The notes beneath the pieces were generated by a model. It searched no databases, was not told where the DNA came from, and saw only the letters and a program-made list of their open reading frames with translations. DNA of 64,000 nucleotides from Candidatus Planktophila lacus (GTDB lineage: Bacteria > Actinomycetota > Actinomycetes > Nanopelagicales > Nanopelagicaceae): positions 248,001-312,000 of the forward strand of contig NZ_CP016783.1 in NCBI RefSeq assembly GCF_002288385.1, read 5' to 3'. Of this stretch, positions 59,140-60,340 are shown piece by piece. Position 1 is the stretch's first letter. Every line of letters begins with the position of its first letter. The position numbers were made by a program, and so were the translations under genes.

Positions 59140-59507
59140 GAAGAGTCGCCCGGATCACCGCGTTGCGCCCAGATTAATTTCTGAGTGGACCGAGGAAAGT
59201 CCGGACTTCGCAGAGCAAGGTGGTGGGTAACGCCCACCCGGAGAAATCCGCGGGATTAGTGCCACAGAAAATAGACCGCACATGCAAATGTGTAAGGGTG
59301 AAACGGTGGTGTAAGAGACCACCAGTATTTGTAGTGATGCAGATAGCTTGGTAAACCCCACCTGAAGCAAGACCACGCAGATGGCGTTTGAGAACTGCTC
59401 GTTCGAGCCATCGGGTAGGTTGCTTGAATCTGTAAGCAATTACAGATCTAGATGGATGGTGATCCGTTCGCAAGAACGACAGGATCCGGCTTATAGGGCG
59501 ACTCTTC
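59140..59507 (+). ncRNA. rnpB: RNase P RNA, bacterial type A
   Basis: This catalytic RNA matures tRNA 5' ends. The terminal helix pairs GAAGAGTCGCCC (59140-59151) with GGGCGACTCTTC (59496-59507). Core signatures are GAGGAAAGTCCGGAC near the 5' end, the CACAGAAAATAGACC-type loop, GTAAGGGTGAAACGGT and the 3' universal segment before CCGGCTTATAGGG. A T-run follows the 3' end. The 3'-terminal segment recurs twice downstream (59869 and 60297). Confidence 0.96.
59485..59507 (+). repeat. rnpB 3'-end repeat, copy 1 (within rnpB)
   Basis: This 23-nt segment, beginning TCCGGCTTATAGGGCGAC, is the native 3' terminus of RNase P RNA and the reference for the two downstream copies. Confidence 0.85.
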
Positions 59508-59517
59508 TTTTCATCAT

Positions 59518-59534
59518 AGTTACTGCGAGTAACT
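59518..59534. repeat. Short perfect hairpin after rnpB
   Basis: AGTTACT and AGTAACT form a 7-bp stem with loop GCG, followed by an A/T stretch. It may back up termination of rnpB or protect a 3' end. Confidence 0.45.
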
Positions 59535-59564
59535 AAATATTTGTGTCATAATTTTCTTGCACTA

Positions 59565-59575
59565 CGGGTTTGGTA
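59565..59575 (+). repeat. 11-nt inverted repeat arm facing the tRNA-like anticodon arm
   Basis: CGGGTTTGGTA here is the exact reverse complement of TACCAAACCCG at 59726-59736, which covers the anticodon and 3' anticodon stem of the tRNA-like gene. Confidence 0.5.
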
Positions 59576-59581
59576 GTAATC

Positions 59582-59610
59582 GGGGCTTGGTTAATTTCCA
59601 AGTCCCTTTT
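59582..59610 (+). terminator. Terminator-like hairpin between rnpB and the tRNA-like gene
   Basis: GGGGCTTGG (59582-59590) pairs with CCAAGTCCC (59598-59606, one G:U) around TTAATTT, followed by TTTT. It implies a short transcript ends here on the plus strand. Confidence 0.75.
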
Positions 59611-59693
59611 GCTTTTCAAGTTAGTTTTTATGCACATGTAGCCCGATTTAGAAATTTCGTTAGCTAGTAATTGCATAACTTCGCTTCCGTGTT

Positions 59694-59768
59694 GGGGGCG
59701 TGTTGTAATTGGCAGCAATCGTGTTTACCAAACCCGAAGTGCGGGTTCAAATCCCGTCGCCTCCACCA
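59694..59768 (+). tRNA. tRNA-like gene with apparent ACC anticodon and encoded CCA
   Basis: A 75-nt cloverleaf can be drawn: acceptor GGGGGCG/CGCCTCC with one G:U, D-stem TTGT/GCAA, T-arm GCGGG-TTCAAAT-CCCGT, discriminator A and encoded CCA. The anticodon stem CGTGT/ACCCG has a T:C mismatch at 29-41; the loop TTACCAA gives anticodon ACC. ACC would read Gly codons, but bacteria normally use GCC, and A73 is not the usual bacterial tRNA-Gly discriminator. The D-loop AATTGGCA is reminiscent of tRNA-Gln. It could be a mobile-element tRNA, a pseudogene or a regulatory tRNA mimic. Confidence 0.6.
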
Positions 59769-59834
59769 CAGTCTTAGCTGTCTCAGCTCGATCTATTGGT
59801 AATGATCAAAAGAGTTGCAGCAGATATGCATGGG

Positions 59835-59861
59835 AGGGCCTCGAGAGATCGAGGCCCTTTC
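59835..59861 (+). terminator. Terminator after the tRNA-like gene
   Basis: A perfect 10-bp stem, AGGGCCTCGA with TCGAGGCCCT, closes a GAGA loop and is followed by TTT. It would end the tRNA-like transcript. Confidence 0.85.
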
Positions 59862-59868
59862 CAATTGT

Positions 59869-59891
59869 TCCGGCTTATAAGGCGGATCTAC
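59869..59891 (+). repeat. rnpB 3'-end repeat, copy 2
   Basis: TCCGGCTTATAAGGCGGATC is followed by TAC; it matches rnpB copy 1 at 19 of 23 positions. It bounds the tRNA-like segment on the right and the phnA segment on the left. Confidence 0.65.
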
Positions 59892-59925
59892 ATTAAGTCT
59901 CGATAAAATCACTTAGAATCAAGTT

Positions 59926-60270
59926 ATGAGTGATCAACTACCCCCGTGTCCTGAATGTAAATCTGAATTCTCATACGAAATGGGCGAGCTACTCATCTGC
60001 CCCGAATGTGCTCACGAGTGGAACCCAACTGAAGTTGAAATTGAGACTGTTCGCGTAATTAAAGACGCTTCGGGAAACGTCCTTGTCGATGGTGATGATG
60101 TAACCATCGTGAAGGATATGAAGGTCAAGGGAAGCTCGAATACTCTGAAAGTTGGAACGAAAGTACGAGGGATTCGACTCGTCGATGGGCCTGGTGATCA
60201 CGACATAGAGGCGAAGGTAGATGGTTTCGGACCAATGAATTTGAAATCTAGCATTGTGAGAAAGGCTTAA
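59926..60270 (+). CDS. phnA: PhnA/YjdM zinc-ribbon protein
   Basis: This 114-residue protein has an N-terminal zinc ribbon with C8, C11, C25 and C28 (CPEC and CPEC) and a C-terminal SH3-like PhnA domain, [37 protein letters not shown]. Despite the old phosphonate label, its function is not established. It lies alone between rnpB-end copies 2 and 3, which suggests it arrived as a cassette. Confidence 0.93.
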
Positions 60271-60296: not shown

Positions 60297-60320
60297 TCCG
60301 GCTTATAGGTCGACTCTTCA
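60297..60320 (+). repeat. rnpB 3'-end repeat, copy 3
   Basis: TCCGGCTTATAGGTCGACTC then TTCA matches copy 1 at all but one of the first 22 positions. A T/A-rich flank like that of native rnpB follows. It is closer to the native end than copy 2. Confidence 0.75.
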
Positions 60321-60340
60321 TTTTAAATTAGGATTTTATA

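Follow-up and report, generated by a model that had tools for sequence, protein, structure and literature searches.

The window analysed here is a 64,000-nt stretch of the complete, 1.41-Mb genome of Candidatus Planktophila lacus (contig NZ_CP016783.1, positions 248,001 to 312,000); coordinates below are those of the window, and features lie on the forward (+) strand unless stated otherwise. It contains the RNase P RNA gene, rnpB (59142-59509; Rfam RF00010, 303 bits), whose 3' end is a repeated insertion site. The last 25 bases of rnpB (59485-59509, direct repeat D1) are found again at 59869-59893 and at 60297-60321. These att-like repeats thus delimit a 384-bp unit with two RNA genes, which has the first and second repeats as its left and right borders, and a 428-bp unit with a YjdM/PhnA-like gene (59926-60270; Pfam YjdM, 1.8e-29) as its cargo. 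In many relatives of the module the right-hand repeat lies at +174 to +178. The single open reading frame of at least 60 aa inside the 384-bp unit (59533-59718, reverse strand) runs antisense across both RNA genes and was taken as a chance occurrence. Judged by structure and conservation, both partners of the module are RNA genes.

Anatomy of the two RNA genes

The downstream partner was called by ARAGORN as a 75-nt tRNA with anticodon ACC (59694-59768; anticodon at 59727-59729) and an encoded CCA, and it scores 50.8 bits with the Rfam tRNA model (gathering threshold 29). This agrees with the cloverleaf described in the initial annotation; the mismatch at 29-41 (U29-C41) and A73, also listed there, can be read directly in the sequence. 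The acceptor end (G1-C72, G2-C71, G3-U70, A73) is of the tRNA-Ala type and the same as that of the native tRNA-Ala, combined with a glycine anticodon. The canonical features of bacterial tRNA-Gly (C2-G71, U73 and a complete anticodon stem) are absent: the native tRNA-Gly has GCGGACG..CGUCCGC-U73, whereas the tRNA-like gene has GGGGGCG..CGCCUCC-A73 together with the 29-41 mismatch. The original view that this combination does not fit a bacterial tRNA-Gly is therefore borne out. A possible -10 box of the tRNA-like gene, CATAAC, lies at 59674-59679, its conservation being judged by eye. Downstream, the putative transcript continues into a 3' trailer made of a hairpin (59784-59817) with compensatory changes in its stem, followed by a terminator (59836-59862; trailer fold z = -4.0). 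The loop of the trailer hairpin, TTGGTAA (59796-59802), complements the anticodon loop.

The upstream partner was noticed through an 11-nt match: CGGGTTTGGTA (59565-59575) is the exact reverse complement of TACCAAACCCG (59726-59736), a target that spans the anticodon loop and the 3' strand of the anticodon stem, so that the perfect complement covering the anticodon is as first described. The terminator-like hairpin reported between the two complementary arms is also present (59582-59606; 9 pairs, then TTTTGCTTTT), and a 58-nt stretch at the upstream arm folds with z = -3.4. We interpret the upstream arm as the 5' end of a distinct sRNA gene of about 50 nt, with its own probable -10 box and terminator (predicted sRNA 59560-59614, supported by its fold and by seed-tRNA covariation; seed 59560-59575, terminator stem 59582-59606). 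Its predicted start, about 59559-59560, follows a likely -10 box, CATAAT after TGTG (59547-59552), which is conserved in an alignment of 13 sRNA copies; a generic sigma-70 scan for two-hexamer promoters gave none at the sRNA locus. The tRNA-like RNA begins about 120 nt downstream of the seed. Comparative data thus favour the earlier suggestion that the upstream arm belongs to a short, separately terminated RNA predicted to pair with the tRNA-like molecule.

Two further motifs flank the sRNA. The palindrome GTTACTGCGAGTAAC (59519-59533) precedes its -10 box, is the only one of its kind within the window, and recurs ahead of many related modules, with examples from each of the three types described below. 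A near match of this palindrome (GTTACTNNGAGTAAC, window 59519-59533, before the sRNA promoter) is found elsewhere in the genome (L271:1501-1515) upstream of a DUF2256 gene, and the sRNA may consequently be under a host regulator. On the other side, a DnaA-box-like motif, TTATGCACA (59628-59636), lies at -66 from the tRNA-like start. The corresponding motif has at most one mismatch to TTATCCACA in 62 of 91 related loci (shuffled motifs, 1.3%). Most loci conserve such motifs (TTWTNCACA) in the interval from the sRNA terminator to the tRNA-like gene, often as a pair at positions -82 and -66 relative to the start of that gene.

Rfam contains no family other than tRNA that matches the module, and the T-box model gave no match at E up to 1 within 59510-59880, so that a T-box or another Rfam family was rejected. 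A T-arm pattern search of the host genome gave no lead. Native tRNAs were also considered as targets of the sRNA and rejected on a comparison of about 30 of the 40 tRNA genes of the host genome: the adjacent tRNA-like RNA forms the strongest duplex, the next best native duplexes being shorter and weaker.

A family of modules with matched specificity

A blast search with the region gave matches in genomes of the same genus at differing chromosomal places, several of them with a tandem second copy of the upstream part. In the alignment of 13 sRNA copies, the -10-like box is followed by 10-14 variable nucleotides at the predicted 5' end, a constant TTGGTAGTAAT-YGGGACTTGG and the terminator. Of 296 genomes from the same family (Nanopelagicaceae), 79 have matches to a covariance model of the sRNA and 73 to a model of the tRNA with about 100 nt of trailer (E <= 1e-12 for the latter). 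Close relatives of the locus are found in Candidatus Planktophila and in further Nanopelagicaceae, which are freshwater Actinobacteria; the cultured strains P. versatilis MMS-IA-79 and P. lacus MMS-21-148 are among the carriers of the module. An order-level search yielded the family genome set again, and the single clear match outside the family in a class-wide search of 394 genomes was G632 (116 bits, against up to about 63 for ordinary tRNAs). The latter module (L282, G632:C4) sits on a 3.2-kb MAG contig assigned to another family, which may reflect transfer or possibly a binning error. Several freshwater MAG contigs with the module, among L228, L236-L238, L242, L248, L251, L254, L259 and L265, are titled Bifidobacterium breve or Streptomycetaceae; these names are probably wrong. 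Neither phage and plasmid collections nor, in an exact-pattern search, viral contigs matched the module, and a phage or plasmid origin was accordingly rejected. The locus in the window belongs to a large two-RNA family that has so far gone undescribed, and no account of such a system was found in the open-licence literature searched.

The modules fall into three types. Type I has a 7-nt anticodon loop, anticodon ACC and an acceptor end like that of the native tRNA-Ala (G3-U70, A73), with ...CUCC-A in nearly all of 60 copies according to the listed acceptor strings; this places it in the tRNA-Ala acceptor class, and charging with alanine is a prediction from that class. Type II has mostly a 9-nt loop, anticodon GCC and varied acceptor stems. 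In type III the loop is 9 nt long, position 73 is U and the end is mostly UCCG. The tRNA-Ala acceptor feature is lost in types II and III. Their 9-nt loops, often lacking U33, make decoding by these two types doubtful. Across the tRNA-like RNAs, the bases C35 C36 A37 A38 and the tRNA fold are kept.

At the window locus alone the 11-nt match is weak, since a run of equal length (12 nt with G-U) appeared in 19 of 300 shuffled upstream regions; it becomes compelling only because both arms change together in relatives. The seeds of types I and II are complementary first to the invariant CCAA in the loop and, beyond it, to the 3' strand of the anticodon stem, which varies. As related genomes are not independent, we used distinct seed/tRNA pairs, which lessens the effect of kinship. 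Over the 7 variable nucleotides, 26 of 32 distinct type I pairs are fully matched, with a mean of 6.72 of 7 paired (shuffled 4.74 +/- 0.17), a mean that none of 20,000 shuffles of the 32 pairs reached. For type II, 10 of 14 distinct pairs are fully matched (mean 6.71 versus 4.50; 0 of 20,000 shuffles). Type III differs in its target: here the upstream RNA has 12-13 nt complementary to the 3' acceptor strand of its own tRNA-like RNA, CC end included (diagonal mean 12.2, off-diagonal 8.4). Such a stretch necessarily resembles the 5' end of the tRNA itself, and its origin by copying is therefore possible.

Matching appears to take precedence over the anticodon stem in type I. Seed pairing at 39-43 is found in 32 of 32 tRNAs, a figure favoured by preselection, since the loci chosen had 6 or more of the 7 seed positions paired, and a complete anticodon stem in only 2 of 32; type I tRNAs thus seem to preserve the sRNA match over their own anticodon stem. 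The trailer follows the anticodon as well: its loop covaries with position 34 (A-U 72, G-C 15, G-U 2, A-C 0). Taken together, anatomy and matched pairing have strong comparative evidence, and they point to an antitoxin-like RNA that recognizes the tRNA-like RNA by base pairing.

The initial annotation gave equal weight to a pseudogene. A chance match beside a decaying tRNA pseudogene, which the borderline statistics of the single locus (19 of 300 shuffles) might suggest, is practically eliminated by the seed-tRNA covariation: matched changes recur in dozens of loci (0 of 20,000 shuffles), stems change in a compensatory manner, and more than 80 loci retain the cloverleaf, the match and their covariation. 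Conservation and compensatory changes are thus both seen in relatives, and decay of the cloverleaf and the repeat is not the pattern. Folding of the upstream arm and the tRNA together, as in a cis-folding leader, is unlikely to be the main mode, because the matching sRNA can be the distal of two copies and solitary sRNAs exist. Beyond what was first noted, the comparison adds G3-U70, the trailer hairpin complementing the anticodon loop, the flanking repeats of the rnpB 3' end and the family as a whole.

Partner loss and mobile context

The distribution of the two partners is asymmetric. We considered 89 loci with at least 260 nt of upstream DNA. A matching antisense RNA accompanies all 85 intact tRNA-like RNAs (76 by an automatic rule and 9, with one interruption, by inspection). 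The four loci without a match are all damaged or deleted: L170 has anticodon ACA and a damaged T-loop, in L145:1552 the 5' part is replaced, L187 has a broken acceptor and an sRNA that does not match, and in L193 the tRNA is deleted and the sRNA retained. The asymmetry, as far as it suggests toxicity, depends on these four loci. Loci with an sRNA and no tRNA-like RNA are common. Where two sRNAs are present, usually one matches the local tRNA, and in several loci the matching copy is the distal one of a tandem pair. Moreover, 14 of 27 distinct non-matching or solitary seeds exactly match tRNA-like RNAs elsewhere (expected 4.15 +/- 1.9). This pattern is the trace that would be expected of a poison and an antidote with immunity to foreign variants, and it falls short of proof of toxicity.

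The word 'cargo', used of the RNA at first sight, proved apt in that the module sits in mobile DNA. Of 94 related modules, 54 have the repeat of the rnpB 3' end on their upstream side and 39 on their downstream side (shuffled motifs, 0.05). In arrays at L123, L135 and L165, modules or lone sRNAs stand behind rnpB repeats and are followed by cargo genes (Rieske, DUF305, NlpC/P60, enolase-like, glycoside hydrolase 31 and alpha/beta hydrolase). The complete genomes G126, G187 and G278 have a single copy of the repeat, as expected for an unoccupied site. Most type II and III modules lack the rnpB repeat. Two type II modules (L195, L198) stand directly behind an apparent tRNA-Arg 3' end, which suggests a second insertion site. 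No recombinase was recognized in the units of L123, L135 and L165, whose open reading frames were read by eye and in part run against Pfam. The host genome shows no more than two tyrosine recombinases. Both are located well away from the array, and their size suggests that they are XerC and XerD.

The arrays resemble tycheposons and the flexible islands of streamlined plankton, in which structural RNA genes likewise have cargo units at their 3' ends (PMC10872708). Tycheposons, however, use a tRNA gene as their site and have their own tyrosine recombinase, whereas the units described here use rnpB, can be shorter than 400 bp, have no recombinase found with them and carry an RNA module at their border.

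Proposed function and its alternatives

On balance, we consider it rather probable that the locus is an RNA-only addiction/immunity module, carried on small mobile units behind rnpB, in which the tRNA-like RNA is the toxin, the antisense RNA the antitoxin and the trailer a fold-back inhibitor. Expression, toxicity and the mechanism of toxicity are what we infer from sequence comparison, and the module is likened to a toxin-antitoxin system rather than assigned to that class, its toxicity being presumed. The locus would give two transcripts, the tRNA-like RNA with its 3' trailer and an antisense sRNA of about 50 nt from its own promoter. The tRNA-like RNA, presumably harmful when free, would be neutralized by the sRNA through opening of the anticodon arm or, alternatively, capping of the acceptor end. 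In the precursor, the trailer hairpin may mask the anticodon loop until 3' processing, in the manner of fold-back inhibition of type I toxin mRNAs, many of which have inhibitory folds and two-step control (PMC11228461). Upon loss of the unit, a stable tRNA-like RNA would persist while the sRNA vanishes, the cell would be harmed, and units would thereby be held in place. Copies with the sRNA only would confer immunity against other variants. In type I the harm could come from charging with alanine, owing to the tRNA-Ala acceptor end, while ACC reads glycine codons; alanine at glycine codons is tentatively the most likely route for this type. Types II and III, lacking that acceptor end, would need another route, such as competition in the Gly-tRNA pathway, which makes the cause of harm the weakest link of the proposal.

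The strongest competing explanation is that, much as in plasmid incompatibility, the antisense RNA controls the mobile unit that carries it. The tRNA-like RNA would then be needed for replication, excision or integration, and the sRNA would set copy number or exclude units of the same type. The diversified matching specificities do resemble antisense incompatibility groups, the module borders units that have att-like repeats, and sRNA-only loci could mean exclusion; the conserved DnaA-box-like pair between the two RNA genes, for which the addiction/immunity reading does not account, keeps this explanation alive. Nevertheless, we regard it as unlikely: the units have no replication or recombinase gene, the tRNA-like transcript is predicted to stop at its own terminator, and neither the tRNA fold nor C35 C36 A37 A38 would have to be kept for such a role.

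The tRNA-like RNA might instead be a useful accessory tRNA, charged (with alanine in type I) for controlled mistranslation or amino-acid donation and tuned by the sRNA. It would fit that the full tRNA fold is retained and that nearly all type I copies have an acceptor end of the tRNA-Ala type. However, the distribution is patchy (73 of 296 genomes), the alanine feature is missing in types II and III, and the diversified specificities, the sRNA-only seeds against foreign variants and the decay of copies without an sRNA would be left unexplained. We consider such a role quite unlikely. In another alternative, which we hold to be very improbable, the sRNA would be the active partner and regulate other targets, with the tRNA-like RNA serving as its sponge. 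Common sRNA-only loci would agree with it, but the seeds vary freely and match tRNA-like RNAs, which argues against a constant cellular target; in addition, the best sRNA duplex among the tRNAs compared is with the tRNA-like RNA, and intact sponge-only loci, expected to be harmless, were not found.

Among known systems, the module comes closest to RNA-RNA toxin-antitoxin pairs, CreTA for example, and to antisense incompatibility systems. SdsR/RyeA is, besides CreTA, another example of a type VIII (RNA-RNA) toxin-antitoxin. In CreTA, CreT acts on tRNA supply and carries a mini-ORF, and CreA works via CRISPR-Cas on the creT promoter (PMC8501985). As in that type, both partners here are RNA and a genetic element would be held in place, if the presumed toxicity is real; unlike CreTA, the module has a direct antisense seed on a tRNA-like RNA, many matched specificities and no protein. 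The type I toxin-antitoxin system hok/Sok shares an antisense sRNA adjoining its target, a precursor fold suspected to be inhibitory and a likely role in holding mobile DNA; in contrast to it, a toxin ORF is absent here and the target is a tRNA-like RNA. In ColE1-type RNA I/RNA II, antisense loops diversify into specificity groups and a tRNA-like shape is involved. The present module shares both traits but consists of two separately terminated transcripts in a chromosomal cassette, and its region has the DnaA-box-like pair but no origin, primer or rep gene that we could see. With tRNA-Gly and tRNA-Ala the downstream partner has in common the fold, the Gly-type anticodon (NCC) and, in type I, the acceptor end of the native tRNA-Ala; it differs from them in the imperfect anticodon stem, the matched antisense gene, the trailer hairpin and the patchy distribution.

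What is new lies in the anatomy, a tRNA-like RNA paired with a diversifying, matched antisense RNA. The wider claim would be a new class of RNA-only selfish/immunity module, in which tRNA-derived toxins with diversified anticodon arms, each restrained by its matched antisense RNA, spread as mini-cassettes at rnpB of abundant freshwater Actinobacteria, solitary antisense RNAs provide immunity to foreign variants and type I puts alanine at glycine codons; we hold it to be quite possible, if just short of probable. The many natural matched and mismatched pairs allow direct tests of specificity. If the proposal is true, a tRNA gene itself would be the toxin of a mobile element, countered by an antidote of about 50 nt, with lock-and-key evolution of both. 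It would account for odd, 'extra' tRNA genes in genome annotations and provide an addiction device of very small size. Conflict among mobile units could also be followed in bacteria that rank with the most abundant of fresh water.
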